Shown piece by piece: positions 45,203-64,000 of a DNA stretch of 64,000 nucleotides. This DNA comes from Tateyamaria pelophila. GTDB lineage: Bacteria > Pseudomonadota > Alphaproteobacteria > Rhodobacterales > Rhodobacteraceae. The notes under the pieces were generated by a model. It was given only the letters and a program-made list of their open reading frames with translations, made no database searches and was not told where the DNA came from. Both the position numbers and the translations under genes were made by a program. The stretch is from assembly GCF_019966495.1 (NCBI RefSeq), contig NZ_JAIMIA010000004.1:1-64000 (forward strand), written 5' to 3'. Numbering within the stretch: the first letter of the stretch is position 1; every line of letters starts with the position of its first letter.

Positions 45203-45488
45203 TTGTCAGCTCCCTGCTTTGTACGCAAAGTGTATTATGCCCATGGAAGGATGCAACAGGTAAGTTCCATGAATGACTTCCAGAGTTCACTGACCGTGTG
45301 CCCATGAATGACCGATTTTCCGTATTGCAGAGTGCAACCGTTTCAAAGGGAACGGCGCGCGCAGATGCCAATCCTGCTCTGCAATCAGAGGTGGCAGTTC
45401 ACGCGCTGTGTGTGGCGTTTACAATTTTTTCTGACTGTGCGATGTTTCGTTGATCGCGCCCCAATTCCTTTTTCAGAGCATTGTTTGT

Positions 45489-46262: not shown

Positions 46263-46352
46263 AGTCTCGTGCCATGACCGAAGCTGGCCGCGTGCCTGTG
46301 GACCAAAGGAGCCTGCTTGCCGGTCGCAAGACCGGTGACACGCGGATCGCGA

Positions 46353-47297: not shown

Positions 47298-47598
47298 TGC
47301 CCCCTCCCTCGCTTGTTTTTGTTAAATACTGACCCGAAGTTGTTGCCGTTTCAATACGCCGCAAGCGCGTTTTTTGCATCGTCGTTAGGTCTTAATTTGA
47401 TGTTCGCGCCAGATCAAGAGCGGGTTTGGTCGCGGTCTTGGTCAGGTGGTTTCGGCTCTGCTCTGGTCAACCCGTATAAGACAACGATGTCGACCACGTC
47501 AGCAAAGCGGTCCGTTTCAAAACCGTGCGCGCTCATGTCGGGGACATCAATTCGACTGGCAAATAATCATGCAAGTTGATGAATAATTTGAGACCAGT
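47298..47598. other. intergenic stretch without a gene
   Basis: About 300 bases between two same-strand genes. It is locally A+T-richer near 47300-47400 and should contain the acyltransferase promoter. No hairpin with a T-tract and no credible frame was seen. Confidence 0.4.
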
Positions 47599-48540: not shown

Positions 48541-48867
48541 GACGTACTCACTCAAAGGTTCTGGCTCCACGATGCGCAAAGCAGAAATTGTGTCATTTGC
48601 GTGTTGCTCCGCATCGCTTTGGCCTGAACGGAGCGTGCCGCATCGAAGACACCAGGTCGAGTAAAGTTTTATCGCACCCGTTGAGCGGTTGCCACCCCAC
48701 CTGATAGATAAGCGCGTCAATCTTTTGCGCGAAAGAGAGGCACCGCGCCGGCGCGCGGGGGGGGATCGCGGCCAATCGCTCGCGTGCGGGCGCGTCGGAG
48801 TGTTGGGCTTTCCCCAAGGCCACTCGAAGCTGTAACACTTTGAAACCTCACGGCTGCAGGGGACTTG
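48541..48867. other. intergenic stretch between divergent genes
   Basis: A 327-base gap that must hold the promoters of the sulfotransferase and the first nucleotidyltransferase. It includes the 12-base palindrome CGCGCCGGCGCG followed by a G-run near 48748-48767. No gene was recognised. Confidence 0.35.
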
Positions 48868-49668
48868 ATGTTTCGACTGAACAGGGGCAGAACGCGAGAA
48901 ACCTTAAAACACTGGAATAAAACGTTGAAAGCAGTCATTTTGAGCGCCGGTCAGGGAAGCAGATTGCTTCCTTTGACCCAGAACCAACCCAAATGCTTGC
49001 TGCCCATAAACGGGCGGTCGATCCTTGAATGGCAGCTGAGCGCGTTGGCCGCAAATGGCGTGAACGACGTGACGGTCGTCACCGGGTTTTATGCCGAAGA
49101 GGTCGACAACCTGATCGCATCCCAGGATTTTGGCGACCAGAAGGTGCGCACCGTTTATAATCCGTTTTACGCCGTCGCCGACAATGCCGGCAGCTGCTAT
49201 GTTGCCCGCGAGGCGATGACGGGCGAATTTATGGTGATCAACGGTGACACATTGTTCGAACCCGAACTGGCGGGCAGGGCGCTTGCACAGCGCAAGATGC
49301 CCATCACCGTGACCATCGACCGCAAAGACTCTTATGACGCGGATGACATGAAGGTCTGCCTTGAAGGCGATCGTCTGATCCGTATCGGCAAAGCCCTGCC
49401 GCTGGATGTGGTGGACGCCGAGTCCATCGGCCTGTTGATGTTCAACGAAGAGGGTGGCCAGCACTTCAAGGATGCCATCGTCAACCTGCTGCGCGGCGAA
49501 AACGGCCTCAAAAGCTGGTATCTGCGCGCCATCGATGCGCTGGCTGTGAGAAAGGTCGTCGGCACCGCGTCCATCGAAGGCTACACATGGCAGGAGGTCG
49601 ATTTCATGGAAGACCTGAGCCGCGCTGAAGCGCTGGGTGACAAATGGGCCGGTCGTTCGGCGGGATAA
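48868..49668 (+). CDS. sugar-phosphate/alcohol-phosphate nucleotidyltransferase
   Basis: A 266-aa NTP-transferase fold protein. The signature is LKAVILSAGQGSRLLPLTQNQPKCLLPI, then VINGDTLFEP (metal aspartate). It is close to the phosphocholine cytidylyltransferase-like branch, which activates a phosphorylated alcohol to an NDP-alcohol. ATG 48868 follows AGGGGA. With two CDP-alcohol phosphotransferases downstream it may supply a CDP-activated head group. It converges on another nucleotidyltransferase with a six-base gap. Confidence 0.85.
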   Translation: MFRLNRGRTRETLKHWNKTLKAVILSAGQGSRLLPLTQNQPKCLLPINGRSILEWQLSALAANGVNDVTVVTGFYAEEVDNLIASQDFGDQKVRTVYNPFYAVADNAGSCYVAREAMTGEFMVINGDTLFEPELAGRALAQRKMPITVTIDRKDSYDADDMKVCLEGDRLIRIGKALPLDVVDAESIGLLMFNEEGGQHFKDAIVNLLRGENGLKSWYLRAIDALAVRKVVGTASIEGYTWQEVDFMEDLSRAEALGDKWAGRSAG

Positions 49669-49674
49669 CCCGCC

Positions 49675-50469
49675 TTACCTGCTGTCACGTGCGATCAATA
49701 TCTTTTCCGCGAGATAGAAGTCTTCCGGGCTGTCGACATCAATCGCCGCTTCGGCAAAGGGCATATGCGTCACGGCCAGTTTGGTGTCTGTTCGCTTGCC
49801 CAGTTTTTCCACTGCCTGCGCCAGCGTCAGGGTGTTCGTGAGATAGCGCAGCGCCGTCATGACGCCCAACTGGCGCAGCATGGTGAGCGGGCTTTTGCGG
49901 TTTTCCTCGACCTGACGCCAGAAGCGGATGATTTTGCCTGCCTGTGGGGACTGAAAGGCAAACAAGTTGCACCCGCCTTGACCACCGTCCCGAAAACGCA
50001 TGCGGGTGCGGCGGGCCTCTGGGTAGGCCTGCAGGACCATGTCGGTTTTGGCCATGGCAGCGGTAACATCAGAGCCGACCGGGAGCGAACTGAGAAAATA
50101 CTCCAGTATCTCCGGCGTCAGCAGGCAATTGTCCGCCGTCGTGATCACGACAGGCCCCGATTGACCGCCCCCAAGCGCTTCAAAGCCATGCAGCGCGCTT
50201 TGCGCAGGCGAAGGTTTGGCCGTCAGCGTTTGCAAGTATCCGCTATCCATCAGGACGTTGAGGCTGTGCAGATCGCTTAGAACTTCGGGCGTCTCGATGA
50301 CCACCACGACTTTATCGATGGATTTGACCGCTGAAAGCGTTGCGATTACCCGTTCGATCATCGGTTTACCGGCTATCGGCAAGAGCGCCTTGTGCGACAC
50401 GCCGCCAAGGGCTGCCACCGTGCAGTCAGGGCCACGGCTGCCGGCCAGAACAAGCGCAGAATAGGTCAC
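49675..50469 (-). CDS. MobA-like NTP transferase
   Basis: A 264-aa protein with an NTP-transferase fold: ALVLAGSRGPDCTVA, then HKALLPIAGKPMIERVIATL and VVITTADNCLLTPEI. The loop is a MobA/IspD-like variant. The GTG start at 50469 overlaps the stop of the ceramide-synthase-like gene by four bases (GTGA), so the two are translationally coupled. The nucleotide and acceptor are unknown; an activated head group for a lipid is a reasonable guess. Confidence 0.82.
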   Translation of the reverse strand: MTYSALVLAGSRGPDCTVAALGGVSHKALLPIAGKPMIERVIATLSAVKSIDKVVVVIETPEVLSDLHSLNVLMDSGYLQTLTAKPSPAQSALHGFEALGGGQSGPVVITTADNCLLTPEILEYFLSSLPVGSDVTAAMAKTDMVLQAYPEARRTRMRFRDGGQGGCNLFAFQSPQAGKIIRFWRQVEENRKSPLTMLRQLGVMTALRYLTNTLTLAQAVEKLGKRTDTKLAVTHMPFAEAAIDVDSPEDFYLAEKILIARDSR

Positions 50470-51608
50470 GTCAGCGATTTTTGAAAAATTCGGTAGGTCT
50501 TGTAGTGGCGACCGCCCATCTGTTCGGCCAGTCGGTTCATCGCGGTATTGTCTTCCAGGACCCATGACATCTCAAGCGTTTCGATGCCGCGTTTTTCGAC
50601 TTCGCGGTACATTTTGGCCATGATGCTGCCGGTCATGAACGGGCCCAGCATGCTGTTGAGGTATTTCTTGCGCACACCCAGCAGGGGAACGCGGGCGGAT
50701 TTCAGGCCTTTTACCTTGAGGCGCCACAAGAGCCTGGCCCAGCCAAACGGCAAAAGCTTGCCGTTCAGGTCGGCGATGGCTTCGTTGATGTTGGGCAGGC
50801 AGACCAGAAAGGCGGCCGGATCGCCATCCATCTCGACAAACCAAACGAGGTCCGGGACGATCAGCGGTTTGAGCTGATTGGCCATATGCGCGACTTCGTC
50901 ATCGGCCATGGGAACAAAGCCCCAGTTTTCGGACCATGCATCGTTAAATATCTGGACGAGCCGGCCCACTTCAGCGCGGTAATCCTTCATATTGATCGGG
51001 CGCACCACCATGCCCTTGGTCGGCGCGCGTTTTTCAAAGGCCTTCAGCGTTGCAGGCAGTTCACCGCCGACATTCCACACATAGGCATTCAGATCGCGAC
51101 CCTTGTGATAGCCCAAGGCCTCCAGATGCCGGGCCACATACCCGTAGTCATGGCCCATCATCATCATCGGAACAGTGTCGCGCCCGTTGATCAGCAGGCC
51201 GGTCTCTTCGTTGATATTCAGGTTGAACGGGCCAAAAACCACAGTCGCGCCGTGATCGCGCAACCAAGCTTCAGCTGTTTCCGTCAGGGCCTTGAAAATG
51301 GCAGGGTCATCTTCGGCGGCGATCATACCGAAATGCCCCTCTTCGGCGCTACGCTGTTTTGCAACCAAAGGGTCCATTTGCGCACTGATGCGGCCCACGA
51401 CCGCATCGCCGCGTTTGGCGAGCCACAGCTTGACCGTGGCACGCTTGAGGTAGGGGTTCTTCTTGGGGTCCAGAACCTCCCGCCGCTCCAGAAAAAGCGG
51501 GGGGATCCATGTCGGATCGTCCTGATGCAGCCGGTATGGCAGCTTGATAAAGGCATCCATTTCCGCCGCTGTGTCGACCGGAACAATAACGAGCGGGGCT
51601 TCACTCAC
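50466..51608 (-). CDS. GNAT-family acyltransferase, bacterial ceramide synthase candidate
   Basis: A 380-aa protein with a GNAT-like fold; the N-terminal FIKLPYRLHQDDPTWIPPLFLERREVL and the block FGPFNLNINEETGLLI mark its family. I judge it homologous to Caulobacter bCerS, which N-acylates 3-ketosphinganine. The C-terminal domain around IETLEMSWVLEDNTAMNRLAEQMGG is the acetyl-CoA-type fold. GTG 51608 is the start. It lies between a fatty acid hydroxylase (27-base gap) and the MobA-like gene. A simple N-acetyltransferase is the alternative. Confidence 0.7.
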   Translation of the reverse strand: MSEAPLVIVPVDTAAEMDAFIKLPYRLHQDDPTWIPPLFLERREVLDPKKNPYLKRATVKLWLAKRGDAVVGRISAQMDPLVAKQRSAEEGHFGMIAAEDDPAIFKALTETAEAWLRDHGATVVFGPFNLNINEETGLLINGRDTVPMMMMGHDYGYVARHLEALGYHKGRDLNAYVWNVGGELPATLKAFEKRAPTKGMVVRPINMKDYRAEVGRLVQIFNDAWSENWGFVPMADDEVAHMANQLKPLIVPDLVWFVEMDGDPAAFLVCLPNINEAIADLNGKLLPFGWARLLWRLKVKGLKSARVPLLGVRKKYLNSMLGPFMTGSIMAKMYREVEKRGIETLEMSWVLEDNTAMNRLAEQMGGRHYKTYRIFQKSLT

Positions 51609-51635: not shown

Positions 51636-52391
51636 TTACGCCTGTTGTCGCGCCGATGGGGGACGATCCCGTGGCATATGCCCGCTTTCTTCTGCCACCC
51701 AAGGGTATTTCTTGGCCTTTTCGACGTCGTAGCCAAGGTTGTAGACAGTAGGGCTGCGCGGACGGTCCTTGGCCTTGTCATAATACGTCCCCAGCGCCTT
51801 ATCCACGGCAAAGCTGGTGATCCCGTAATTGCCATCTTCGTGGTGGAAGTGGTGCAACAGGTGGTGCTCTTTCATGTATTTCAGGTATTTGTTCCTGGGT
51901 TTGAAGTTCAGGTGCTGGATGCAGTGCACAAATTCATAGACGCATGTTGTCAGAAGGCCCGCAGCCAGACCCGACGCCGCCCCGGCAGGGCCTGCGATCG
52001 CCCAACCGACAGGAATGGTCACAACGACGATGGTCGGCAAGGTCGTGTAAAGCGCGCCGAACAGAACGTCGAGGCGATGGGGGTCCTGGTGGTGATCGAA
52101 ATGAATACGCTTCCAGATCGCGGCGGTCGACTTCCAGCGATAAAGGTATGTGCTGTGCAAGACGAAGCGGTGCAAAAGGTACCAGACCACCGGGTAGAGC
52201 GCCACAACGGCAGCCGCCGCCACGAGCGGCCCAACCCAGCCAGAGCCAAAATAGAAGGCAGCGATGATCGAGATGATCGCGAGCCCGAAATACGCCTGAA
52301 TGGCGTAGAAGGTGCAATAGGCCTTCACGAGATCAGGCAGGGTCATTTTGCCCAGATCGAAACTGCGGCCTTTCCATGTGGCAACAAACAT
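51636..52391 (-). CDS. fatty acid hydroxylase/sterol desaturase family protein
   Basis: A 251-aa inner-membrane di-iron enzyme. The histidine boxes are HRFVLH, HFDHHQDPH, HCIQH and HHLLHHFHH, all present, with about four membrane segments. This family hydroxylates or desaturates lipids, including sphinganine C4 and carotenoids. Its place at the head of the ceramide-synthase-like operon makes hydroxylation of the sphingoid or acyl chain likely. The ATG at 52391 follows AAGGGA. Confidence 0.86.
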   Translation of the reverse strand: MFVATWKGRSFDLGKMTLPDLVKAYCTFYAIQAYFGLAIISIIAAFYFGSGWVGPLVAAAAVVALYPVVWYLLHRFVLHSTYLYRWKSTAAIWKRIHFDHHQDPHRLDVLFGALYTTLPTIVVVTIPVGWAIAGPAGAASGLAAGLLTTCVYEFVHCIQHLNFKPRNKYLKYMKEHHLLHHFHHEDGNYGITSFAVDKALGTYYDKAKDRPRSPTVYNLGYDVEKAKKYPWVAEESGHMPRDRPPSARQQA

Positions 52392-52540
52392 TGTCGCATC
52401 CCTTTCACTTGGAGCGTTTGGACTGGGTAGATAGTCCTCCGGTCCCTGCATGTCCAGTTCACGGATTGTCGCAGATTACGCAACAAAATAAGGGTGTTTC
52501 AATATGTTTCACCAATTGTTACCGGCAGGTTTTGCGCGGA

Positions 52541-53746
52541 TCAGGTGAGGAAGGGTTCGTGCCGAGCCCTGGGGTAAAGCCAAGCAGTGCGCGCGGCATG
52601 CCACACAAAGGTCAGCCCCTGCCAAGCCGTAATGAACAGGAATGCGGCGGATCCAAACCCGAGGGCGACCCCGAGGGTGAACACGACCAGATTGACGTTG
52701 CGTCGCGCGATCCAGGTGCGCACCGTGCCGTCCAATGGCGTCACCGCGTGCAGGCCCCGTTTGAACCGGGCCTTGGCGACCATCAATGCCAGACGGTCCG
52801 CGATATAAAACAGGGTCAACCAGAGGGTGGCCGCATAAAGCGGGGCCTCGGACCCGGCGGCAACGAGGCCCGCCGCCCATGCCCAATACCAGAACGGCGG
52901 ATGCACGATATCGAGCCCGTGATCCAGTATATTCCCGATGGGTGAATCCGTCAGCGTCAGACGCGCCAATTTGCCGTCAACGCTGTCCAGAATGGTCATG
53001 CTGTAGGCGGCGACAAAGCCTGCAAACCAATAACCGTAGGCAAACAAGGGAACGGCCAGAATGGTCAGGAAAATGCTGAACACCGTCACCATGTTCGGTG
53101 TGATGCGCCAGCGGATGCACAATCGGGTCAATTGCCACACGATCGGCGGATACACCCACTTCGTCATGAAGTCGGTCGAGCCCTTGTAGTTCAGATGGAA
53201 GAGGCGTTTCTCCAGTTCGGCACGGTGCTGATCGTCGGCCACGCGCTCCAGCAGGAACGGCACGTTGCGGCGCAGATTGCCAACAAAATCAGGCAACTCA
53301 TCTGGCGTGATTTCGCGAATGGTGCCCGCCGCGCGCAAATGCTCTGCTGCCGCGTGCAATGATGTCGTGTTTGTGGGCGGCGGTGTGCCCTTGGTAAGCC
53401 GAAGAACGGCGGTATCCTTGCTGGCCGGATGGCCCAGGAAACAGGCGGGATCGGTCTCCTGCATCAGCAGTGGCAACAGGCGCGCATCGATGACCGCGCC
53501 ACCATCCAGCGCCAATACCGGGCCGTCCACCTTATCCAGATAGGCCGAGAGACGTTCACCAACCGTGCCTGTATCGTCGAGAACCGTGTATCTCGCGTCC
53601 GCTTTAGTGTCTGCAACGCCCGAAATCACCACCTTGACCGATGGATCGCCCGCCTTTGCAATGGAGCGCAAAATGCGCTCCAGCGTTGTGAAGCCGAAAA
53701 GGCGCGGGGCGCCGGCCACCGGCTCTGCATCAATCCAGATATGCAT
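52541..53746 (-). CDS. CDP-alcohol phosphatidyltransferase with N-terminal degenerate NTP-transferase-like domain
   Basis: A 401-aa protein. Residues about 190-400 form a CDP-alcohol phosphotransferase with the canonical DGxxARx8Gx3Dx3D motif (Asp257, Gly258, Ala261, Arg262, Gly271, Asp275, Asp279) and six or so membrane helices. Residues 1-180 look like an NTP-transferase fold that has lost its GxGxR loop, a layout like the inositol-phosphate cytidylyltransferase/DIPP synthase fusions. It would join a CDP-activated lipid or alcohol to an acceptor. lptG lies 12 bases upstream in the same run. Confidence 0.85.
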   Translation of the reverse strand: MHIWIDAEPVAGAPRLFGFTTLERILRSIAKAGDPSVKVVISGVADTKADARYTVLDDTGTVGERLSAYLDKVDGPVLALDGGAVIDARLLPLLMQETDPACFLGHPASKDTAVLRLTKGTPPPTNTTSLHAAAEHLRAAGTIREITPDELPDFVGNLRRNVPFLLERVADDQHRAELEKRLFHLNYKGSTDFMTKWVYPPIVWQLTRLCIRWRITPNMVTVFSIFLTILAVPLFAYGYWFAGFVAAYSMTILDSVDGKLARLTLTDSPIGNILDHGLDIVHPPFWYWAWAAGLVAAGSEAPLYAATLWLTLFYIADRLALMVAKARFKRGLHAVTPLDGTVRTWIARRNVNLVVFTLGVALGFGSAAFLFITAWQGLTFVWHAARTAWLYPRARHEPFLT

Positions 53747-53758
53747 ATGAGGGGCCCA

Positions 53759-54811
53759 CTACCTTTCGAAACGGAACAGAAAAAATGCCGATATGCCGGT
53801 AAAGATGAAGAGCGGCGTCCAGGCGGCAAAGGTCGGGCCAAGCACGCCGGCCTTCCCGAGAGACGCGAACATGCCGTCGACGACCAGAAACGTCAAGCCG
53901 AGCACGAGAGCCAGTGCCGCGCCCAGTTGCGGCCCGCCGGACCGGCTCATGCCCCGAATGGTTGAGGCGGCAATGAGCATCATCACAAGCGATGTCAGCG
54001 GCCCGACGGACCGGCGCGCCAATTCGGTACTGTAAACCGACGGATCGGCGCTTGAACTCCAGTCGACAGACAGAACTTGGCCAAGCGTGCCTTTTGACAG
54101 TTGTTCGGGACGCGCGATCAGGTCCAGAATAACCTGTGGATCGGGTCCGCCGGGCCAAGGCTTTACCGCCGTTTTGATGGTTTCGGACGACGTCTGGGAG
54201 AGTATGGTTTCGGCGGCATCATAAAGCTGCCATTCCGACCCTTCGAATTTCGCCGTCGTCGCCGTGACGCGCGCGATCAGACGACCTGCTTCATCCCGCT
54301 CGAAAAAGCTCAGACCCATCAGCGTCTGGCCGTCGCGCGAAACTTCACTGATCCGCACAAGGTTATCCTCGCCGCGCAGCCATTGCGTCCCGCCCCGGTT
54401 CAGAAGCGGTTCCCACCACTCGATAAAGGCCTGTTGCGACGCAGGGGCCACCCTGTCGGCCAGAATGAAATGCCCCAGCACGACCATCAGACAGGCGGGA
54501 ATACCCAAGGCTGCAATCCGAAGTGGCGACATGCCGGTGGCGCGCAGTACGATCAATTCGCTGTGATTGGCCAGTGCGAGAATGCCCATGGTGCTGCCGA
54601 TCAGGACAGACAGCGGGATCAATCGCTCGACAATCGTGGGCACCCTGTATCCGGCAAACAGGACCACGTCGGCGACGCTGCCGCGCCGCTCGAGGATATC
54701 CTCGATGTTGTCGATCAGATCCATCAGCACCAAGAGCGCCGCGAAGGCCAGCAAGACCGACAGGATACGGACTCCGAGGACCCAACCGAAATAGCCAATG
54801 AGAACTCTCAC
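53759..54811 (-). CDS. lptG: LptG-family permease, probable sphingolipid-locus paralogue
   Basis: A 350-aa YjgP/YjgQ permease. Three membrane helices at the N-terminus (to about residue 110), a periplasmic beta-jellyroll and three C-terminal helices are seen. LptG with LptF and the ATPase LptB extracts lipopolysaccharide from the inner membrane. Here the pair lacks the usual lptD-surA-pdxA-ksgA neighbours and instead is embedded in the lipid locus, which suggests a second, dedicated pair. It overlaps lptF by four bases. Confidence 0.85.
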   Translation of the reverse strand: MRVLIGYFGWVLGVRILSVLLAFAALLVLMDLIDNIEDILERRGSVADVVLFAGYRVPTIVERLIPLSVLIGSTMGILALANHSELIVLRATGMSPLRIAALGIPACLMVVLGHFILADRVAPASQQAFIEWWEPLLNRGGTQWLRGEDNLVRISEVSRDGQTLMGLSFFERDEAGRLIARVTATTAKFEGSEWQLYDAAETILSQTSSETIKTAVKPWPGGPDPQVILDLIARPEQLSKGTLGQVLSVDWSSSADPSVYSTELARRSVGPLTSLVMMLIAASTIRGMSRSGGPQLGAALALVLGLTFLVVDGMFASLGKAGVLGPTFAAWTPLFIFTGISAFFLFRFER

Positions 54812-56016
54812 TCCGAGGGCTGCCTTTTTGGCCAGATCCGCTTTTTCATCGCCTGGAACACACTGTCGACGCGGTCAAAGAACTGTTCGAACTTGTTGGG
54901 GCGCAAACGTTGGTCGATTTGCCAGAACATATTGATACAAAACAGTGAAAACAGGCCAAAGGGAACCCAGAGCCCGACCAGCGGAGAGACAACGCCAAGC
55001 CCCACAAGCCCTTCGCCCACTTCCAGTGAATAGTGATAGAGAAGCAGCAGAATGGCAGCCGTGGCCACCGCCGGGCCGCGCCTGCGCCGTTTGGCGGCGA
55101 TCCCCATGGGCACCGCGAGGAAGGGCATGGTGGCCACGGAAATCGATCTGACAAGGCGACCGTTGACTTCGGCATTCAGCTTTGTCTGTTCAATCGCGTC
55201 TTTGGGGTCTGCGCCGGGTTGCGGTTGGGTGTTGCGTTTCCAAAGCTCGCCCAGCGTCAATTCACGCTGATCGTTTCCGCGCTCCCGAAACGGCGTTGGT
55301 TCAAATGGAAAGTCAGGCGTAAAAGTGAGCTTGCCCAGGTACAGGGTATACGGCGCTTGTCCGGGTTGCTCAATGATCTGAACGACGTTTTCCAGAACGA
55401 TCTTCGTCTCGCCGGTGTCTGGGCTCGTGGTCACCTGACCATTCGCCGCCGTTATCGTCATTTCCTGACCGTCATCGGAAATTTGGTGCACAAAGACGCC
55501 GCTCAGGCCGCGGTCATCCAGATCGATCTCGTTCGCAAGGATCGTCAGACCCTTGGCGGGGGCGAAGAAGGTTTGCGCCGAAATAGCCTCGGTCCAGACA
55601 GCGTGGGTCGCGGCATGCCGAATGGCGCGGTATCCGTAGCGGCTATAGGGTTGCAGATAACCCAGAAGCAACACGCTCAGGATCGACAGGATTACGCCCG
55701 CCACGATCACGGTGCGCGCCATCCGCCGCACGGATGCGCCTGATCCCAGAATGACGTCCAGTTCGTTATTGTCGCCCAGTTGCGCCATGAGCAGCAGAAT
55801 GCTGATGAAAAACGCGGCCGGAAGGGCTAGGCCCAGGTAATGTGGCAGCAGGTTGGCGGCCATTTGCAGAACCAGCCCGAAGGCCGCGTTATTGGCCGCG
55901 GCAAATTCGAACAACCGCAGGACCCGCTCCAGGATCAGCGTCAGCAGCACGATGCTGAGCGCGATCATCAGGCGGCGCATCGTCTGCGAAAGCACGTATT
56001 TGTCTAGGATGGTCAT
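54808..56016 (-). CDS. lptF: LptF-family permease, probable sphingolipid-locus paralogue
   Basis: A 402-aa partner of LptG with six membrane helices and a large periplasmic jellyroll. Seen are DKYVLSQTMRRLMIALSIVLLTLILERVLRL, then SILLLMAQLGDNNELDVILGSGASVRRM, typical of LptF, and the C-terminal helices from about 290. It follows the HIT gene by 21 bases and overlaps lptG. No lptB, lptA or lptC is visible in the window. Confidence 0.87.
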   Translation of the reverse strand: MTILDKYVLSQTMRRLMIALSIVLLTLILERVLRLFEFAAANNAAFGLVLQMAANLLPHYLGLALPAAFFISILLLMAQLGDNNELDVILGSGASVRRMARTVIVAGVILSILSVLLLGYLQPYSRYGYRAIRHAATHAVWTEAISAQTFFAPAKGLTILANEIDLDDRGLSGVFVHQISDDGQEMTITAANGQVTTSPDTGETKIVLENVVQIIEQPGQAPYTLYLGKLTFTPDFPFEPTPFRERGNDQRELTLGELWKRNTQPQPGADPKDAIEQTKLNAEVNGRLVRSISVATMPFLAVPMGIAAKRRRRGPAVATAAILLLLYHYSLEVGEGLVGLGVVSPLVGLWVPFGLFSLFCINMFWQIDQRLRPNKFEQFFDRVDSVFQAMKKRIWPKRQPSE

Positions 56017-56037: not shown

Positions 56038-56487
56038 TCAGAGGTCTGACCAGTGGTGTCGCAGCGCATCGACGAGGCGTTTCGTCGTTGCGTCATCCAT
56101 TGAAACCGCCTGCGCCAGCTGTGGGGGACCCGGCCATCCGGCATCATTGACGGTCATCTCCTCAAAGGTTCGGCTACCGTCATAGCGGGGGATCACGTGA
56201 AAATGCACATCATTGTCGACCATCATCAACATCAGGTAGTTGATCTTTTCATAGTGCACCATGTCGCGCAGCATATGCTCGATCTTGTCGATGACCGGCT
56301 TGAGGCCTGCAAACCCTTCGGCGCTCACATCGCCAAACGCACTGACCGGTTCACGGCTGATCAGAACAAGCGACCCCAGGGTGACCTGCTCGGGGCGCAA
56401 CAGCACAGTCCAATGCTCCGTTTCGCCGATCACAGTGGCGGGATGGCCAAACTTCGTCATTGTGCTGTTTGGGGGATTGTCATGCAT
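56038..56487 (-). CDS. HIT-family hydrolase
   Basis: A 149-aa HIT-fold protein. The active-site strand reads VDNDVHFHVIPRYDG, with two of the three histidines of HxHxH plus a variant first position. HIT proteins hydrolyse or transfer nucleoside monophosphates, for example in AP4A or adenylated/cytidylated intermediates. Its place ahead of lptF, among nucleotidyl- and CDP-alcohol transferases, hints at action on an NMP-linked lipid intermediate. Confidence 0.8.
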   Translation of the reverse strand: MHDNPPNSTMTKFGHPATVIGETEHWTVLLRPEQVTLGSLVLISREPVSAFGDVSAEGFAGLKPVIDKIEHMLRDMVHYEKINYLMLMMVDNDVHFHVIPRYDGSRTFEEMTVNDAGWPGPPQLAQAVSMDDATTKRLVDALRHHWSDL

Positions 56488-56629: not shown

Positions 56630-57529
56630 TCAAGACAGTGGAACCTGCAAGGTCCAGCGGCCAAGGGTCTCGAACCCACGCGGCGTCAGACCACGGCCAT
56701 GCGTTGACAGACGCCAGCCAGCGTCTTCTCGGCGTACATTGATGAGGTTCCAGCGTGCTTCGTCATCCTTTTCGGAATTGAGCGCCATGGATGCGGAGGG
56801 CACGCCAAGCACCGGGATTTTGCCCTGCGGTCCGCTAATCAGGCCAAAGTGACTGTGATGCTGGTGGCCATGTAACACCAGTTCCGCACCCGTGCGCGCC
56901 AAGACCGCCCGAAACGCGGCCCGGTCGCGCAAGGCTTTGCGGCGCTTGGTCGGGTAATCCTCCGGCGGATGGTGCAGAACGACGACACGAAACACATCCT
57001 GTCCGCGCAGATCGTCCAGCACGGCCTCAAGCCGGTCCAGCTGCGCCTTGCCCAGCGTGCCCGAAGCGAACAGGGGCGGTGTCGGATTTGACGTGGACAA
57101 CATGACAAATGCGACCGGTCCGCGCTTGCGCACAAAGGGGAAGGTCACATCGGTCGCATCATCGCCCAGCATCCACGGGCTCCACAGGCCGATCCCTTCG
57201 GCGAAGGGCACGCGAACATAGGCATCGTGATTGCCCGGAATAACGGTTACGTCTTGAGGCGGACCAACCGTTTTCAACCAGTCACGCGCGGCCGCAAACT
57301 CATCGGGCAAGGCGATGTTGGTCAGATCGCCCGCCACGATTGTATGGTCCAAGTCCGCCGCCGCGATATCTTCCAGCATCGCCGTCAATACTTCAGGTCG
57401 GTGGCGCAGATGCCGTTTGCGATGCCATGACAAATATCCAAGCAGCCGTTTGTTCAGCACCTGCGTGGCCTTCACATTCGGCGTCAGGGGATTGTGCGGA
57501 TCTGACAGATGGGCGAAGGAAAGATGCAT
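56630..57529 (-). CDS. calcineurin-like metallophosphoesterase
   Basis: A 299-aa protein with all the metal motifs in order: HLSDPH near the N-terminus (D-x-H), AGDLTN, GNHDAY, VLHHPPED and GHQHHSHFG. It hydrolyses a phosphate mono- or diester. No signal peptide is seen, so it acts in the cytosol. A start at 57529 places HLSDPH seven residues in; an ATG at 57571 is possible. It may be a phosphatase of a lipid intermediate in the surrounding locus. Confidence 0.85.
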   Translation of the reverse strand: MHLSFAHLSDPHNPLTPNVKATQVLNKRLLGYLSWHRKRHLRHRPEVLTAMLEDIAAADLDHTIVAGDLTNIALPDEFAAARDWLKTVGPPQDVTVIPGNHDAYVRVPFAEGIGLWSPWMLGDDATDVTFPFVRKRGPVAFVMLSTSNPTPPLFASGTLGKAQLDRLEAVLDDLRGQDVFRVVVLHHPPEDYPTKRRKALRDRAAFRAVLARTGAELVLHGHQHHSHFGLISGPQGKIPVLGVPSASMALNSEKDDEARWNLINVRREDAGWRLSTHGRGLTPRGFETLGRWTLQVPLS

Positions 57530-57608
57530 GGCACTCGCGTTTTCGGATTGTTTCGGGTCATATATCCGCATAATCGCTACGCTGGTTTTAAGGAAAGCAA
57601 AATCCCCT

Positions 57609-58745
57609 ATGGCGACATCTGCGCACAAACAGGAAACCGCCATCGCTCCGGTCAAGCTGGTGGGCGAGGGTGTTTCGGTCTGGGGCATGACGTCCGCAGA
57701 GCGGCTGCGCCGGATGTTTGCCCGTCTGAAGGTGACGGATGTCTCCGCGTGGGACGGGGCCACACCCGCCGCCGAAGCCTGTTATGTGGTCAGCGCCGAT
57801 CACGCCTATGCCCAAGTGCTGTTGGCGGATTTGTCCAGAACGGTGGGCACGGTGCTGACTTCCAATGGCCGCCCCGTCGCCGCATATGTATCGGAGGACA
57901 GGGCCGCTAACATCGCGCAGGATATTGCCGACGGACAGCTGTCGCGCGCCGCCGATCTGACATCGTGCGAACCGGACCAGCTCAGCTCTGCTTATGACGA
58001 AACCCTGCGCAAGCGCGAAGTGCCTTATGTCATGGCGCTGACCCCCGAGACCGTGCGCGCGGTTGAACAGCGCACGTTCGATGGGTCGTACAAAGGTGTG
58101 ACGGATTTTGTCACGCTTTATTGCTGGCCCAAACCCGCCATCGCGGTCGTGCGGTGGTGTGCGACTGCGCGGATCACGCCCAACATGGTCACGACACTCA
58201 GTCTGGTGCTGGTGCTGGCGGCGATGTGGCTGTTCTGGAACGGGTTTTTCATCACGGGGATAATCGCCGCATGGTTGATGACCTTCCTCGATACGGTCGA
58301 TGGCAAGCTGGCGCGGGTCACCGTGACATCAACAAAATTCGGAAATGTCTTCGATCATGGGATCGATCTGGTGCACCCCCCGTTCTGGTACTGGGCGTGG
58401 GTCGTGGGTGTGGCCGCGACGGTGGACAACCCGCCGGATCTGACCACCGCCTTTTGGGTTACCGTGGTCGGCTATGTGGTGCAGCGACTTCAGGAAGGGA
58501 TCTTCATCAAGGCTTTCAACATGGAGATGCACATCTGGCGCCGGTTCGACAGCCTGTACCGCCTGGTCGTGGCCCGGCGCAATCCGAACCTCGCGCTTCT
58601 GACGGTCTTTGCACTCTTTGGTTATCCCGCCGAGGGTCTGATCGCGGTTGCGGTCTGGACGGCGGTTTCGCTTGTCGTACACAGCCTGCAGATCGCGCAA
58701 GCGCTGCGCGCCCCGCGTCCGCTGCAATCCTGGCTCGATCATTGA
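57609..58745 (+). CDS. CDP-alcohol phosphatidyltransferase (second copy)
   Basis: A 378-aa paralogue of the CDP-alcohol phosphotransferase at 52.5 kb. The C-terminal half has DGKLARVTVTSTKFGNVFDH with the full DGxxARx8Gx3Dx3D motif and about six membrane helices. The N-terminal 170 residues again lack a clear active NTP-transferase loop. It opens a plus-strand operon: its stop overlaps the start of the lipid kinase (TTGA), which overlaps the TAM41-like gene (ATGA). This suggests a stepwise phospholipid route. Confidence 0.86.
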   Translation: MATSAHKQETAIAPVKLVGEGVSVWGMTSAERLRRMFARLKVTDVSAWDGATPAAEACYVVSADHAYAQVLLADLSRTVGTVLTSNGRPVAAYVSEDRAANIAQDIADGQLSRAADLTSCEPDQLSSAYDETLRKREVPYVMALTPETVRAVEQRTFDGSYKGVTDFVTLYCWPKPAIAVVRWCATARITPNMVTTLSLVLVLAAMWLFWNGFFITGIIAAWLMTFLDTVDGKLARVTVTSTKFGNVFDHGIDLVHPPFWYWAWVVGVAATVDNPPDLTTAFWVTVVGYVVQRLQEGIFIKAFNMEMHIWRRFDSLYRLVVARRNPNLALLTVFALFGYPAEGLIAVAVWTAVSLVVHSLQIAQALRAPRPLQSWLDH

Positions 58746-59689
58746 AAATCGGTCTGATCAGCAATCCGCTCAGCCGTGCCAACCGCAAGAGCGGTGGGGT
58801 TGCCGCACGCGTCGCCCCAAGCGATGATATTTGCGTCGCCCAGCCGCGTGGCCATGATCAGCTTGTTGAAGATCTGATCCGCTTCGCCCGCGACGGTGTG
58901 GACGTGATCGCCATCGACGGGGGCGATGGAACGGTGCGCGATATCGTCAGCAATATTGATCAGGCATATGGCGATCACTGGCCCCTGATGGCTCTTCTGC
59001 CATCCGGCAAGACCAACGTCATTGCGGGGCAGGTGGGCCACTTCGGTACCGGACAGAAGGGATGGGAACGTTTGCTTGCCGTTCGGAAAACCGGCAAACT
59101 GGCCGACATGCAAACCCAATGCGCCGCGATCGAAATCTCATGGCCGGGCCGTGATGATCCGGTCCAGCGCGGCTTCCTGCTGGGCTTTGCGGCTTTTGCG
59201 GATGGTGTGCGGATGGCCAATCAATCGATCCATCCGATGGGCATCAACAAGGGGCTTGCCGTTGCCATGGCCATCGGCGGTGTCTTGCGCCGCAGCTTGC
59301 TGAGCGGTTCGAAAAACCGCGAAGCGTCGGGCGAAGCAGGTACGGTTCTTGTCGATGGCGCGCAGGTGAACGGCACGCGCCACTTCCTTGTTCTGGCCAG
59401 CACGCTGGACCGTCTGACGCTGGGTCTGCAACCGTTCTGGGATCAGGGCAGGGGAGCGATCAACTGGCTCGATATCTCGGCGCCACCCAAGCGCGCCGTT
59501 GTTGGCATCGTGTCGATGGCCCTGGGCAAGCGCAAAGCGTGGATGGAAGACAACGGTTATGCCAGCGGCCGCGCTGAAACGATGGAGGTCAAATTTGACC
59601 AACCCTTCGTTCTGGACGGTGAGCTTTATGAGCCCCATGGCCATATCCGGGTCGCCGCAACGCAACCTATCGGATTTGTCGGCGAATGA
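58742..59689 (+). CDS. diacylglycerol-kinase-family lipid kinase (ceramide kinase candidate)
   Basis: A 315-aa member of the DAGK/sphingosine kinase/NAD kinase superfamily. The ATP-binding segment is VIAIDGGDGTVRDIV, followed by LLPSGKTNVIAGQ. In Caulobacter a DAGK-family protein (CpgB) is the ceramide kinase of the sphingolipid locus, which makes ceramide the likely substrate here. The TTG start at 58742 overlaps the preceding stop by four bases. Confidence 0.82.
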   Translation: MKIGLISNPLSRANRKSGGVAARVAPSDDICVAQPRGHDQLVEDLIRFARDGVDVIAIDGGDGTVRDIVSNIDQAYGDHWPLMALLPSGKTNVIAGQVGHFGTGQKGWERLLAVRKTGKLADMQTQCAAIEISWPGRDDPVQRGFLLGFAAFADGVRMANQSIHPMGINKGLAVAMAIGGVLRRSLLSGSKNREASGEAGTVLVDGAQVNGTRHFLVLASTLDRLTLGLQPFWDQGRGAINWLDISAPPKRAVVGIVSMALGKRKAWMEDNGYASGRAETMEVKFDQPFVLDGELYEPHGHIRVAATQPIGFVGE

Positions 59690-60600
59690 GTGCCGCGCTG
59701 CCGGATCTTGTGCGTGCGGGCCTTGAGCGCCCTGTACCGGATGAAGCGCGCGCCTTGGCAAATGAACTTGCTTCGGAGAGTGGGACGGCGGTGGTGGCCG
59801 TGCTGTTTTATGGCTCATGCCTGCGCAATCAGACGGTCGAAGGGGTGCTGGATTTCTATATTCTTGTGGACACATACAGCAACTACCACGCAAGCTGGAT
59901 CGGTGCCGCTGCCAACGCGATTTTGCCGCCCACCGTGCGTTACCGACACGGAGAAGAAGCCCGCGCCAAGATCGCCGTGATCTCGGCCACTGCCTTCGCG
60001 CGCAAGATGCTCCCGGACAGCAATGACACGACAATGTGGGCGCGGTTCTGCCAACCCGCCGCGCTGCTCTATGCGCGCGACGGGCAGGCCGCCGCTACAA
60101 CGGTTGAGGCCGTTGCAGATGCCGTGGCGACCGGAGCGGTGTGGGCGCAACGCCTCGGGCCATCGGGCGGGACGTCCGCCGATCTGTGGACGGCATTGTT
60201 TCAAAACACATACGGGGCCGAGTTGCGTGTCGAAGATGGCGGGGATCGAGGCCAGACGATCTATCATCAGGCCGAACACTATTTTGACGCGATGCTGGCG
60301 CCCGCCCTTGCACATGCGACGGCCAGGCAAGGCAGCAGCGGGTGGCCAGACGCGCAGGGCAAAACGGCGCGGCAGTACATGTGTATGTGGCGACGCAAAA
60401 GCATTTATGGAAAAGTGCTGAACATCTCGCGGTTGGTCAAAGCAGCGTTCACCTTCGATCAGAAGGTCGAGTATATCCAGTGGAAGGTCGAGCGCCATAC
60501 CGGCAAACCACTGCACCTGACGGATTTCCAGAAGCGACACCCGCTGATTGCTGCACCCGGTGTTTTGTGGCGGCTGTGGCGGCAGGGTGCCGTGCGTTAG
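59686..60600 (+). CDS. TAM41-like nucleotidyltransferase (CDP-lipid synthase candidate)
   Basis: A 304-aa protein resembling the mitochondrial CDP-diacylglycerol synthase TAM41/Mmp37: FYGSCLRNQT, then GVLDFYILVDTYSNYHAS (metal acids), a LPPTVRYRH segment and RAKIAVISATAF, WARFCQPAALLY near 115. TAM41 uses CTP and phosphatidate. Coupled here to a lipid kinase and CDP-alcohol transferase, it may convert ceramide 1-phosphate to CDP-ceramide. It is the last gene of the plus-strand operon. The match is by pattern, so moderate. Confidence 0.68.
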   Translation: MSAALPDLVRAGLERPVPDEARALANELASESGTAVVAVLFYGSCLRNQTVEGVLDFYILVDTYSNYHASWIGAAANAILPPTVRYRHGEEARAKIAVISATAFARKMLPDSNDTTMWARFCQPAALLYARDGQAAATTVEAVADAVATGAVWAQRLGPSGGTSADLWTALFQNTYGAELRVEDGGDRGQTIYHQAEHYFDAMLAPALAHATARQGSSGWPDAQGKTARQYMCMWRRKSIYGKVLNISRLVKAAFTFDQKVEYIQWKVERHTGKPLHLTDFQKRHPLIAAPGVLWRLWRQGAVR

Positions 60601-60718: not shown

Positions 60719-61936
60719 TTAGCCAAAGCTTGCAATACGCTCGGGTTCGATCACGCCGAACGCAAGACCGATCTTGGTAAAGAGGGCAATGGCCTGATCG
60801 ATTTGCTCATGCGAATGCGCGGCACTCACACTGCTGCGCAACAGGCACATGTTTGCCGGCGTGGCCGGTGGCAACGCAAGGTTGACATAGAGACCTTCAT
60901 TCAGCAGCGCGTTCCAGAAGGCGATCGCCATTTCGGGCGATGGCAATTGAACCGCGACGACAGGGCTCGCATCCGGACCAACCGAAAAACCAGCTGCCGC
61001 CATGCCGTCGTAAAGACGACGCGCATTGCCCATCAGCTTTTCGCGCAGAAGTTCGCCGTTCTTGACTTTTTCCAGCGAGGTTACGACCGACGCCACGACC
61101 GACGAGGGCAGCGACGCCGTGAACATATAGGGGCGGCACGCCACTTTCAGCAGATCAAAGTCGTCGATGTTCGAAACACAGAACCCGCCGATGGCACCGA
61201 GGCTTTTGCTGAACGTGCCGACGATAAAGTCGACATCGTCCTCAACGCCACACTCCTCGGCCAATCCGCGACCGTGCTTGCCCAGAACGCCCATCGAGTG
61301 GGCTTCGTCCACGATCAGATACGCACCGAATTCCTTGGTCACTTCGACGATCTCTTTCAGCGGGGCCTTGTCGCCCAGCATGCTGAAGATGCCTTCGGTC
61401 ACCACGATCACGTTGCCGCCCTTGTTCTTGAGGCGGCGCAGACGTGTGCGCAGGTCGTCGGGATCGTTGTGCTTGAACCGCGTCACAGGGGCCGGTGTCA
61501 GCTTGCACGCGTCATAGATACAGGCGTGGGAGTCCGCGTCGATTACAAGGTGGTCGTCCCGACCTGCCAATGTTGCGATGATCCCCAGGTTGGCCTGATA
61601 GCCAGTGGTGAACATCATTGCATGCTTGCGGCCAAAGAATGCCGCCAGATCACGCTCAAGGCGGGCATGCCAGCCGTAAGAGCCATTGGCGATCCGCGAG
61701 CCTGTTGTGCCAGTGCCGTTTTCACGCAACGCCGTCACGGCGGTCTCGACGCTTTGCTTGTCAAAGGTCAGCCCGAGGTAGTTGTTGGTGCCCAGCAATA
61801 TGGTCTTCTTGCCAGCGACGATCCCCTCGGTCGGCGACAGGATTTTGTCAAAGCGAACGGAGAATGGATCGCTGCCCGCTGACTTAACATCGTCATAGGC
61901 GCTGCGCAGATCTTTGAATTTGTCCAGAATACCCAT
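60719..61936 (-). CDS. spt: serine palmitoyltransferase (sphingolipid type)
   Basis: A 405-aa soluble alpha-oxoamine synthase that condenses L-serine with a fatty acyl thioester to 3-ketosphinganine. The PLP lysine is Lys244 in GTFSKSLGAIGGF, with DEAHS at 210 and His137 stacking on the cofactor. GTGTTGSRIANG is the glycine-rich substrate segment typical of Spt and not of KBL or BioF alone. It is translationally linked to the acyl carrier protein gene (TAATG), as in Caulobacter. A KBL-type role is less likely in this context. Confidence 0.9.
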   Translation of the reverse strand: MGILDKFKDLRSAYDDVKSAGSDPFSVRFDKILSPTEGIVAGKKTILLGTNNYLGLTFDKQSVETAVTALRENGTGTTGSRIANGSYGWHARLERDLAAFFGRKHAMMFTTGYQANLGIIATLAGRDDHLVIDADSHACIYDACKLTPAPVTRFKHNDPDDLRTRLRRLKNKGGNVIVVTEGIFSMLGDKAPLKEIVEVTKEFGAYLIVDEAHSMGVLGKHGRGLAEECGVEDDVDFIVGTFSKSLGAIGGFCVSNIDDFDLLKVACRPYMFTASLPSSVVASVVTSLEKVKNGELLREKLMGNARRLYDGMAAAGFSVGPDASPVVAVQLPSPEMAIAFWNALLNEGLYVNLALPPATPANMCLLRSSVSAAHSHEQIDQAIALFTKIGLAFGVIEPERIASFG

Positions 61937-62187
61937 TATGCTTCTACCTCTGTTTGCAAGGACTGAACGACACCCGCCAATTGTGTGACGGTCTCAGTTT
62001 CGGCAATACGATCCAGCGGGATCGAAATGTCGAAGTGATCTTCGAGCGCCATCACCAGGTCCATCACAGCCAATGAGTCCAGGCTCAGGTCCCGAACAAT
62101 GTTTGTTTCGGCTGTGATACCGGCCGCGCCGTTGGTAATCGTCGTAAGTTCGGTGACGATCACCGTCTCGATCTCTGCGTTGTCCAT
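61936..62187 (-). CDS. dedicated acyl carrier protein
   Basis: An 83-aa acyl carrier protein with the phosphopantetheine site DLSLDSLAVMDL (Ser38). It lies directly before spt (stop and start share one base), and an acyl-AMP ligase lies upstream, so it probably carries the acyl chain used by Spt. The ATG at 62187 gives the standard length; a TTG at 62202 is possible. Confidence 0.9.
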   Translation of the reverse strand: MDNAEIETVIVTELTTITNGAAGITAETNIVRDLSLDSLAVMDLVMALEDHFDISIPLDRIAETETVTQLAGVVQSLQTEVEA

Positions 62188-62318
62188 ATCGTTTCTGTCC
62201 AATGTGCCTGCAGCGTTATCGTCGCAGTTTTTTTATGTGCCCTCCTTATCAAGTGTTAATGGGCCTTTTGAAAAGGTCTGGTGGCGCAAATGGGCGTCAC
62301 GTTTTCCTACTAAGTATT

Positions 62319-63272
62319 TCAGAGCCAATGCCGTGACTTGTACCATTTTGCGGTGTCTGAAAATCCGTCTTTCAGCGTGACCTGAGGACGCCAGATTTCG
62401 GGCGGGGGTTGGGCGCTGGCCGAGGAACTCCAGTCGCCATGCAGCATTTCACGCACTTTGCCTGCCGTCAGGATCGGAGTTTTTCCGATCAGGCGGGCGC
62501 TGATCCCGGAAATATGGCCGCCCGCCCTTAAAATAAAAGGTGGAATGCGTATAACGCTTGGCGATGTTCCGACAGATTGACCTGCAGCCCGAGCGATTTC
62601 ACCCCATGTGTAACCGTCCCGCACGTCGTCGGTCAGTTCGTAAATCGCGTCGTGATCGCCAGCTTTGGCCATTGCAACAACGGCGCTTGAAACATCGGTT
62701 GCATTAATCAGGCATATGCGGGACGAAGGCGCTTTAGGGGCGAAAACCCGTCCCTTGGACGCCATCTGAAACAATGGAAATGTTTCCCGATCCCATCGGC
62801 CATAAACTGCCGATGGGCGTAAAACTATGACCGATCCGGTCGCATTTTTGGTCACCGCATCCTCGCCCGCGCGCTTGCTGGCAGCGTAATCTGATAGCTC
62901 TGGCGCTCGCGCAGCCATCGATGAAACCACTAGAACAGGAGCTTTGGGGGCGACTTGGGCAGCGGCCCGCGCGAGGTTCGCACTGCCGTTTTCGTTCACG
63001 GAAAAGAAATGGTCGCGAGACCTTGCCTTGATCAGACCAGCGCCATGGATAACCACATCAGCGCCCGCACAGAGCCGTTCCAACGCGGATTGATCCGACA
63101 GGTCGCCCAGAACAATCTCGGCGTTCAGGTTGGGCACAAGCGGGTGCAGGGGTTCGCTGCGCACCAGCATCCGGATATTCCAGCCCGCCCGGATCAGATC
63201 TGCCAGAATGTAACGACCGACAAAGCCGGTTCCGCCTGTCACGACGGCCAGTGGCTTATGCGGCGAGGTCAA
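62319..63272 (-). CDS. NAD(P)-dependent epimerase/dehydratase (ceramide reductase CerR candidate)
   Basis: A 317-aa extended SDR. The cofactor loop is VVTGGTGFVGRYIL (about residues 10-23) and the catalytic Tyr-x3-Lys is YAASKRAGE. Caulobacter CerR, a protein of this family in the same gene company, reduces the 3-keto group of oxidised ceramide. The position between acyl-AMP ligase and ACP/spt supports that role, though other SDR reactions cannot be excluded. Confidence 0.85.
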   Translation of the reverse strand: MTSPHKPLAVVTGGTGFVGRYILADLIRAGWNIRMLVRSEPLHPLVPNLNAEIVLGDLSDQSALERLCAGADVVIHGAGLIKARSRDHFFSVNENGSANLARAAAQVAPKAPVLVVSSMAARAPELSDYAASKRAGEDAVTKNATGSVIVLRPSAVYGRWDRETFPLFQMASKGRVFAPKAPSSRICLINATDVSSAVVAMAKAGDHDAIYELTDDVRDGYTWGEIARAAGQSVGTSPSVIRIPPFILRAGGHISGISARLIGKTPILTAGKVREMLHGDWSSSASAQPPPEIWRPQVTLKDGFSDTAKWYKSRHWL

Positions 63273-63290: not shown

Positions 63291-64000
63291 TCACGGTGTC
63301 TGTGGTGCAGGCAGTTCTGCAATAATACCATCAAGGTATTGCTGGCGGGATTTGGTGCGGCTCAGCTTGCCAGATGAAGTGTGTGGCAAACTGTTATGCG
63401 GTACGAGAACGACCTTGGAATGTACACCATGTGAGCCGCTCACGACATTCTCGACTTCAGCACGCAGGGCTTCTCGAGCCGCAGTATCCGTGGCGCGGCA
63501 TTGGACCAGAAGGACAATTACTTCTTCATTATCCTTCTGAAGCGAGAAGGCAGCCACGTCACCGGTGCGACACGCGCTGACTTCACGTTCCACGGACCAT
63601 TCCAGATCCTGAGGCCAGATATTGCGACCGTTGATGATGATCAGATCCTTGGCCCGGCCTGTAATCGCAATCTCACCGTCAGACAGATAGCCAAGATCGC
63701 CCGTATTCAACCAGCCATCTTCGGCAAGCACAGCGGCGGTTTCTTCGGGCAGGCCATCATAGCCTTGCATCATGCTGGGGCCGCGCAGGAAAAAACAGCC
63801 CACGCGCATATCTGGCAGAACATTGCCGTCGCCGTCGCGGACTTGCAATTCGTGTCCCGGCAGCACCTTGCCGCAGCGGACAAAAGAACGCACGCGGGCT
63901 GTACTTTCGGTTGCGGGCACCACATGCCCATCTTCTTCCAACCTGTCCAGGTCGACGGTGTCGACCACCAACCCTTTTCCAGGCTCATGAAAGCTGATGG
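63291..64000 (-). CDS. fatty-acyl-AMP/acyl-CoA ligase (C-terminal part, cut by the window)
   Basis: The visible 236 residues form the C-terminal part of an adenylate-forming ligase, whose start lies beyond 64000. Seen are CFFLRGPSMMQGYDGL, WLNTGDLGYL, the hinge TGRAKDLIIINGRNIWPQDLE typical of fatty-acyl-AMP ligases, and the C-terminal SSGKLSR lysine. It probably charges a fatty acid and loads the acyl carrier protein for Spt. It precedes the cerR-like gene by 18 bases. Confidence 0.87.
   Translation of the reverse strand, partial: ISFHEPGKGLVVDTVDLDRLEEDGHVVPATESTARVRSFVRCGKVLPGHELQVRDGDGNVLPDMRVGCFFLRGPSMMQGYDGLPEETAAVLAEDGWLNTGDLGYLSDGEIAITGRAKDLIIINGRNIWPQDLEWSVEREVSACRTGDVAAFSLQKDNEEVIVLLVQCRATDTAAREALRAEVENVVSGSHGVHSKVVLVPHNSLPHTSSGKLSRTKSRQQYLDGIIAELPAPQTP

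Follow-up and report, generated by a model that had tools for sequence, protein, structure and literature searches.

The closest described system to the locus examined here is the ceramide phosphoglycerate (CPG/CPG2) gene cluster of Caulobacter crescentus. Its published order is CC_1152 (CpgD), CC_1153 (a nucleotidyltransferase), CC_1154 (a ceramide gene), CC_1155/1156 (LptG2/LptF2), CC_1158 (a phosphoesterase), CC_1159 (CpgA), CC_1160 (CpgB), CC_1161 (CpgC), CC_1162 (Spt) and CC_1163-1165 (ceramide genes) (PMC11324152; this and the other papers named below are cited for excerpts of their text). In the same account CC_1160 and CC_1161 are required for CPG, and CC_1159, CC_1153 and CC_1152 for CPG2; CC_1160 alone gives back CPG in a CC_1159/CC_1160 mutant, with CC_1159 (cpgA) dispensable for CPG. 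CpgB is a ceramide kinase that formed ceramide-1-phosphate in vitro (PMC10331486), CpgD makes cytidine diphosphate (CDP)-glycerate and CPG2 aids survival without lipopolysaccharide (PMC12275187), and structures of CpgD have been published (PMC13228409). The open step of the pathway is the one from ceramide-1-phosphate to CPG. Here we describe a cluster of this kind in a 64,000-nucleotide stretch of Tateyamaria pelophila (contig NZ_JAIMIA010000004.1, positions 1 to 64,000; hereafter the window), in which three overlapping genes include a candidate for an enzyme that would activate ceramide-1-phosphate as CDP-ceramide.

The three genes are plus-strand open reading frames (ORFs) joined by four-base overlaps, TTGA at 58742-58745 between the first and second and ATGA at 59686-59689 between the second and third:

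57609-58745, plus strand: cpgA-like CDP-alcohol phosphotransferase, predicted to have an alpha/beta domain at its N-terminus; 378 amino acids, ATG start (PF01066, CDP-OH_P_transf, 1.1e-10; AlphaFold2 model and Foldseek matches given below).
58742-59689, plus strand: cpgB-like putative ceramide kinase; 315 amino acids, TTG start (DAGK_cat 9.3e-9; GGDGT; place in the cluster matches CC_1160/CpgB).
59686-60600, plus strand: cpgC-like Tam41-fold nucleotidyltransferase, proposed cytidine triphosphate (CTP):ceramide-1-phosphate cytidylyltransferase; 304 amino acids, ATG start (AlphaFold2 model, Foldseek, D56).

An initial annotation of this DNA had described three genes coupled by four-base overlaps, for a CDP-alcohol phosphotransferase, a DAGK-like kinase and a TAM41-like cytidylyltransferase, and the gene types and their coupling were borne out by the reading frames, the overlaps, Pfam and the predicted folds. 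It left aside the neighbours that explain the operon, namely a CpgD-like gene, a second phosphotransferase and the flanking ceramide genes; the trio is no isolated operon.

The names cpgA, cpgB and cpgC were given to the trio because the locus agrees in its genes and in their order with CC_1152-CC_1165 as published for Caulobacter. The three genes are contiguous and adjoin the gene for serine palmitoyltransferase (spt) and other ceramide genes, and the locus is a ceramide phosphoglycerate (CPG/CPG2) cluster, that is, the known cluster with one extra phosphotransferase. By the text of PMC11324152, the order shared with CC_1152-CC_1168 runs CpgD, CerS, LptG/LptF, a HIT-type protein, phosphoesterase, cpgA-cpgB-cpgC, spt, acyl carrier protein (ACP), cerR and acyl ligase. 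The window differs in having two additional genes between cerS and lptG, one for a fatty acid hydroxylase (51636-52451), the other for a second CDP-alcohol phosphotransferase (52541-53746). The complete arrangement, including both extra genes, recurs in an uncultured Tateyamaria (locus L037), the closest of the named relatives, with identities to the window of 70% for cpgA, 64% for cpgB and 65% for cpgC.

The product of cpgB is a predicted ceramide kinase, a prediction supported by its DAGK_cat domain, its GGDGT motif at position 60 and its place in the cluster, in all of which it is like Caulobacter CpgB (likened here without the Caulobacter sequence). The first reaction put forward in the initial annotation, from ceramide to ceramide-1-phosphate by the DAGK-like gene, is likewise supported by the C. 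crescentus counterpart, which has been shown biochemically to be a ceramide kinase (PMC10331486).

For CpgC, an AlphaFold2 model made from an alignment of 30 relatives (predicted local distance difference test score, pLDDT, 92.2; predicted template modelling score, pTM, 0.91) was compared with the PDB using Foldseek, and the best five of 247 matches (E <= 10) were all Tam41. The best was a Firmicutes Tam41 with CTP-Mg (7ecd; 2.4e-7, template modelling (TM) scores 0.56/0.62), followed by Tam41 of S. pombe (6ig4 and 6ig2; 1.0e-6 to 8.1e-6), and the first match outside Tam41 was the aminoglycoside nucleotidyltransferase ANT(4'') (7.1e-5). Judged by these top five, the model combines a nucleotidyltransferase (NTase) domain with a second domain in the Tam41 arrangement. 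At the level of sequence, the evidence for Tam41 kinship is thin. PF09139 matches three of 64 CpgC relatives at E<=0.1 (best 7.8e-7), the window protein itself being unmatched; a search of the window's own genome with PF09139 gave no match and one of 150 genomes of the phylum gave a single match below cut-off, and a sequence search of the PDB with a CpgC profile returned one weak NTase match only (E 0.025). The initial annotation had called the protein TAM41-like and proposed comparing its predicted structure with TAM41. The comparison found that fold, and the label stands by fold and by the three relatives that match PF09139, and falls short in the Pfam scan of the window protein.

The predicted active site was examined in alignment A3 (64 of the available CpgC sequences). 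The motif YGS..D56 contains an aspartate, D56, that is invariant in 64/64 relatives. The usual second acidic NTase position is Tyr58 in 62 of these (Cys in one and Phe in one), the strand at 93-100 has an invariant Lys with no acidic consensus at 92-101, and all 64 sequences carry a net positive charge in their final 20 residues. Of the three acidic residues of NTases, Tam41 retains one (review, PMC11646218), and it has a cationic C-terminal helix (PMC7018664). CpgC and the Tam41/Mmp37 proteins of S. pombe and a Firmicutes bacterium are thus alike in fold, in a single NTase acidic residue and in a positively charged C-terminus. They differ in that the window sequence falls below the Pfam model, and in the expected lipid, which from the company of the gene would be ceramide-1-phosphate and not phosphatidate.

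The distribution of these genes was surveyed in 289 genomes of the class, taken in a single draw (with thresholds of E <= 1e-5 for relatives of cpgC and E <= 1e-10 for those of cpgB; G numbers denote these genomes) and in 80 named loci (L numbers). The same 34 genomes carry relatives of cpgB and of cpgC, and none of the 289 has cpgC alone, which is more than chance would give; because the genomes are related, these co-occurrences are not independent events, and counted by genus cpgC is present in 25 of 224. The cpgA gene is present in 20 of the 34 and missing from 14, and a close cpgD (identity >= 46%) is found in exactly the same 20 genomes. The raw count for cpgA was 21 of 289, from which G155 (a weak, partial match of 138 residues outside the 34 genomes, 3.4e-11) was dropped, and that for cpgD was 27, from which seven with 29-33% identity only were dropped (G007, G087, G138, G184, G196, G200 and G210). 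Among the named loci, cpgB lies directly upstream of cpgC in 70 of 80, and 34 of these 70 have neither cpgA nor the second phosphotransferase in the available flanking DNA, some of the contigs being short. In the 60 named loci with full flanks, cpgD never occurs without cpgA. Six Robiginitomaculum loci are compact, with spt, ceramide genes, lptFG, the phosphoesterase, cpgB and cpgC; neither a phosphotransferase nor a small nucleotidyltransferase is present in the available DNA. The pair cpgB and cpgC is the core of the system, with cpgA and cpgD as an add-on pair, in agreement with the published Caulobacter mutants.

Three further genomes from the same family as the window (G022, G154 and G252) lack cpgA, cpgB, cpgC, cpgD and the NTP_transf_3 gene described below; because all five head-group genes tested are missing from them, the cluster is patchy within the family, which hints that it has been gained or lost there. 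The ten named loci in which cpgB is not beside cpgC are all from Burkholderiales, and spt lies elsewhere in all ten genomes. In three of them (L051, L081 and L097) cpgC directly follows cpgA with no cpgB between, and a diverged kinase (26-28% identical to CpgB, motif AGDGT) is encoded ~9 kb downstream, close to an ORF that resembles an ABC transporter; no such kinase was seen in the available DNA of the other seven. On these observations, loss of the kinase in Burkholderiales was considered and dropped. A small protein family (median 180 amino acids) is present in 19 of the 80 cpgBC loci, often beside cpgB or cpgC (L072, L090, L094, L101, L116 and others).

In the scheme that we consider on balance probable for this CPG/CPG2 cluster, CpgB would phosphorylate ceramide, as shown in Caulobacter, and CpgC would move cytidine monophosphate from CTP onto ceramide-1-phosphate, giving CDP-ceramide and pyrophosphate. 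CDP-ceramide and glycerate or phosphoglycerate would then give CPG, through an enzyme outside the operon or through CpgC itself. In a separate branch, CpgD would make CDP-glycerate, as shown in Caulobacter, and CpgA would transfer phosphoglycerate from CDP-glycerate to CPG to form CPG2, a step with genetic support. Because CpgC and CpgD would each use CTP, the cluster would make two CTP activations, one of the lipid and one of the head group. Formation of CDP-ceramide by CpgC is plausible, and is strengthened by the predicted fold, the single-Asp active site and a distribution identical to that of the kinase. The data would narrow the step from ceramide-1-phosphate to CPG to CTP and ceramide-1-phosphate on a Tam41-fold enzyme, apart from a CDP-glycerate branch with its own phosphotransferase.

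Several points weigh against this scheme. We know of no assay of CpgC. The TM-scores of its model are moderate, and the superfamily also contains enzymes with other acceptors; the Pfam scan of the window proteins gave no match for CpgC; orthology to the Caulobacter genes comes from order and content and not from aligned Caulobacter sequences; and no enzyme for the use of CDP-ceramide was found, G026, G158, G167 and G264 having only PgsA and PssA over cut-off. In the excerpted literature, the mechanism of CpgC is called unidentified (PMC12275187, 2025), and Caulobacter CC_1161 mutants have only moderately raised ceramide (PMC11324152). The initial annotation held that a CDP-ceramide pathway would be new. 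The idea is not, because PMC11324152 (2024) already suggests that CC_1161/CpgC makes a nucleoside diphosphate-activated ceramide, and the locus, like most of its genes, is already in the literature; what stands is that the literal term CDP-ceramide was not found in the open-licence papers searched, and neither was a demonstration of CDP-ceramide or another activated ceramide made by CpgC.

CpgA is most likely a CDP-glycerate:CPG phosphoglyceryltransferase acting in the CPG2 step. It carries the motif D228-x2-DG-x2-AR..G245-x3-D249-x3-D253, and all eight positions of D-x2-DG-x2-AR-xn-G-x3-D-x3-D are invariant in the 36 CpgA and second-phosphotransferase sequences of alignment A2 (30 of 45 full-length cpgA relatives, from the named loci or their like, and six second-phosphotransferase rows). 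Its AlphaFold2 model (pLDDT 92.2, pTM 0.88) has full-length Foldseek matches to AF2299 (2.3e-11) and to the bifunctional IPCT-DIPPS (5.2e-11), and weakly matches the CTP:inositol-1-phosphate cytidylyltransferase 2xme (0.056). These matches, tabulated without aligned ranges, suggest an N-terminal domain of the cytidylyltransferase (2xme) kind and a small polar CDP-alcohol as donor. The likeness to phosphotransferases of the AF2299/IPCT-DIPPS type extends over the whole length of the fold; CpgA would differ from them in its donor, expected to be CDP-glycerate and not CDP-inositol, and in an acceptor that would be a sphingolipid. The donor would be supplied by the cpgD-like gene:

48865-49668, plus strand: cpgD-like CTP:phosphoglycerate cytidylyltransferase, for CDP-glycerate (NTP_transferase 3.9e-14; nearest PDB relative LicC, 1jyk, 1.1e-17).

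Its translation probably begins a number of codons after the listed TTG. The protein has R33, K43 and D128 at spacings of 10 and 95, against 10 and 96 for R16, K26 and D112 of CpgD (PMC12275187), the CpgD residues being compared by position with the sequence unaligned. The NTP_transf_3 gene at 49675-50565 was also considered as CpgD and was rejected in favour of this gene, which has the NTP_transferase domain, the kinship to LicC and the active-site residues.

The initial annotation suggested that the head group could be made by the operon's own phosphotransferase, from CDP-ceramide and a polar alcohol. This would suit the translational coupling of the three genes and the finding that CpgA is an intact CDP-alcohol phosphotransferase, distantly similar to the phosphatidylinositol-phosphate synthases (PIPS), which use CDP-lipids. 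However, the fold match to PIPS was not counted in favour of a lipid donor, because several of the matched structures are fusions with an archaeal AF2299 part. The distribution of cpgA also speaks against such a role, since the gene is absent from 14 of the 34 cpgBC genomes and, together with the second phosphotransferase, from the flanks of 34 of 70 cpgB-cpgC loci, and where present it accompanies a close cpgD in 20 of 20 genomes. In Caulobacter, moreover, CC_1160 alone restores CPG in the CC_1159/CC_1160 mutant (PMC11324152). On this distribution and the published genetics CpgA was rejected as the user of CDP-ceramide, a role that we regard as very improbable. The enzyme that would consume activated ceramide is therefore missing from the known gene list. 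Six of the 14 cpgBC genomes without cpgA have just two PF01066 genes each: these are PgsA and PssA over curated cut-offs in the complete genomes G026, G158, G167 and G264, PgsA and a PssA-like protein below cut-off in G256 (80 vs 107 bits), and PgsA and a PgsA-like protein below cut-off in G159 (99 vs 109.1). Because their PF01066 genes are PgsA/PssA or alike, these genomes have no dedicated CDP-alcohol phosphotransferase for CDP-ceramide, and clustering of the ORFs from all 80 named loci turned up no protein with the phosphotransferase motif where cpgA is lacking. CDP-ceramide would be used either by PgsA or PssA, by CpgC in both steps, or by an enzyme of another family.

An earlier published proposal has CpgC join (phospho)glycerate to ceramide-1-phosphate directly, without free CDP-ceramide, for example through a nucleotide-activated intermediate within one active site. 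The four cpgBC genomes with no CDP-alcohol phosphotransferase beyond PgsA and PssA are in keeping with this, but no NTase-fold enzyme is known to us that carries out a second, joining step of this kind. Besides the kinase, CpgC is the sole gene needed for CPG in Caulobacter, which also favours direct joining; the same paper nevertheless calls an unactivated condensation energetically unfavourable (PMC11324152), and we think this route unlikely. Since Tam41 enzymes produce CDP-diacylglycerol (CDP-DAG) (PMC11646218, PMC7018664), CpgC could also be a second CDP-DAG synthase, or act on another lipid phosphate, and support CPG only indirectly. CpgC would be unnecessary for CDP-DAG, however, because CdsA is present in 34 of 34 cpgBC genomes, which makes another lipid likelier. 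That cpgC is confined to cpgB-bearing genomes among the 289, and that loss of CC_1161 abolishes CPG (PMC11324152), also speak against an indirect role, to which we give a low probability. If CpgC does make CDP-ceramide, this could be a sphingolipid-specific CDP-lipid branch point, taken in genomes without cpgA and cpgD by PgsA/PssA or by CpgC to give lineage-specific ceramide phospholipids, with the second phosphotransferase adding phosphoglycerates; we offer this extension tentatively and at somewhat less than even confidence.

The second phosphotransferase of the window, encoded between the hydroxylase and lptG, has full or near full-length relatives in seven of the 289 genomes and nine of the 80 named loci. 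It is always accompanied by cpgA, and two copies are present in G037, G165 and G263. The raw search gave 22 of 289, the remainder being cpgA cross-matches and two weak ones (G148 and G065). This protein possibly adds a further phosphoglycerate or extends the head group.

The NTP_transf_3 protein is matched at E<=1e-10 in 32 genomes of the 289, and these 32 all belong to the 34 with cpgBC; the count is untrimmed, and orthology is uncertain in G244 and G264 (26-28% identical) and in G039 and G167 (32-33%). A CC_1153 mutant of Caulobacter still makes CPG, loses CPG2, has much raised ceramide and grows slowly (PMC11324152). The gene tracks cpgB/cpgC and not cpgA/cpgD, contrary to the CPG2-only phenotype of that mutant and at odds with a tidy division into core and add-on.

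The remaining genes of the cluster are all encoded on the minus strand:

49675-50565, minus strand: CC_1153-type MobA-like nucleoside triphosphate transferase (NTP_transf_3 3.5e-15; PDB relative 2dpw/TTHA0179, 7.6e-15).
50466-51608, minus strand: cerS-type GNAT acyltransferase for ceramide synthesis (Acetyltransf_1 2.4e-4; adjoins the nucleoside triphosphate transferase gene as CC_1154 does CC_1153).
51636-52451, minus strand: fatty acid hydroxylase family protein, probably for ceramide tailoring (FA_hydroxylase 3e-18; in 25 of 80 named loci).
52541-53746, minus strand: second CDP-alcohol phosphotransferase, a cpgA paralogue (PF01066 9.5e-9).
53759-54811, minus strand: LptG-like export permease (LptF_LptG 2.1e-61).
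54808-56016, minus strand: LptF-like export permease (LptF_LptG 3.8e-62).
56038-56487, minus strand: HIT-domain protein (HIT 5.4e-5).
56630-57529, minus strand: CC_1158-type metallophosphoesterase, read divergently from cpgA, 299 amino acids with its ATG at 57529 (Metallophos 2e-11; longer frame 56630-57763).
60719-61936, minus strand: serine palmitoyltransferase, spt (NF047599, 667 bits against a cut-off of 500).
61936-62202, minus strand: ACP-like frame of 88 amino acids with the motif LDSLAVMD, which from its position we take to be a probable acpR-type ACP.
62319-63272, minus strand: cerR-type epimerase/SDR oxidoreductase (Epimerase 8.9e-20).
63291-64000, minus strand: aasR-type acyl ligase, probably cut by the window end (listed frame 63291-63971; AMP-dom_DIP2-like 1.4e-6; an ORF of 578 amino acids lies at the same place in L037).

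Three further genes adjoin the cpgD-like gene, encoding a sulfotransferase (47599-48720), an LpxL-type acyltransferase (46353-47297) and an Asp/Asn beta-hydroxylase (45450-46262), and a role of the genes at 45450-48720 in further lipid tailoring is possible. Farther away on the minus strand, a frame of 400 amino acids (38630-39832) contains repeat blocks of ~25 residues (HARMANFPIPLISRRKP-type) in at least five near-regular copies, and looks precursor-like and repetitive.

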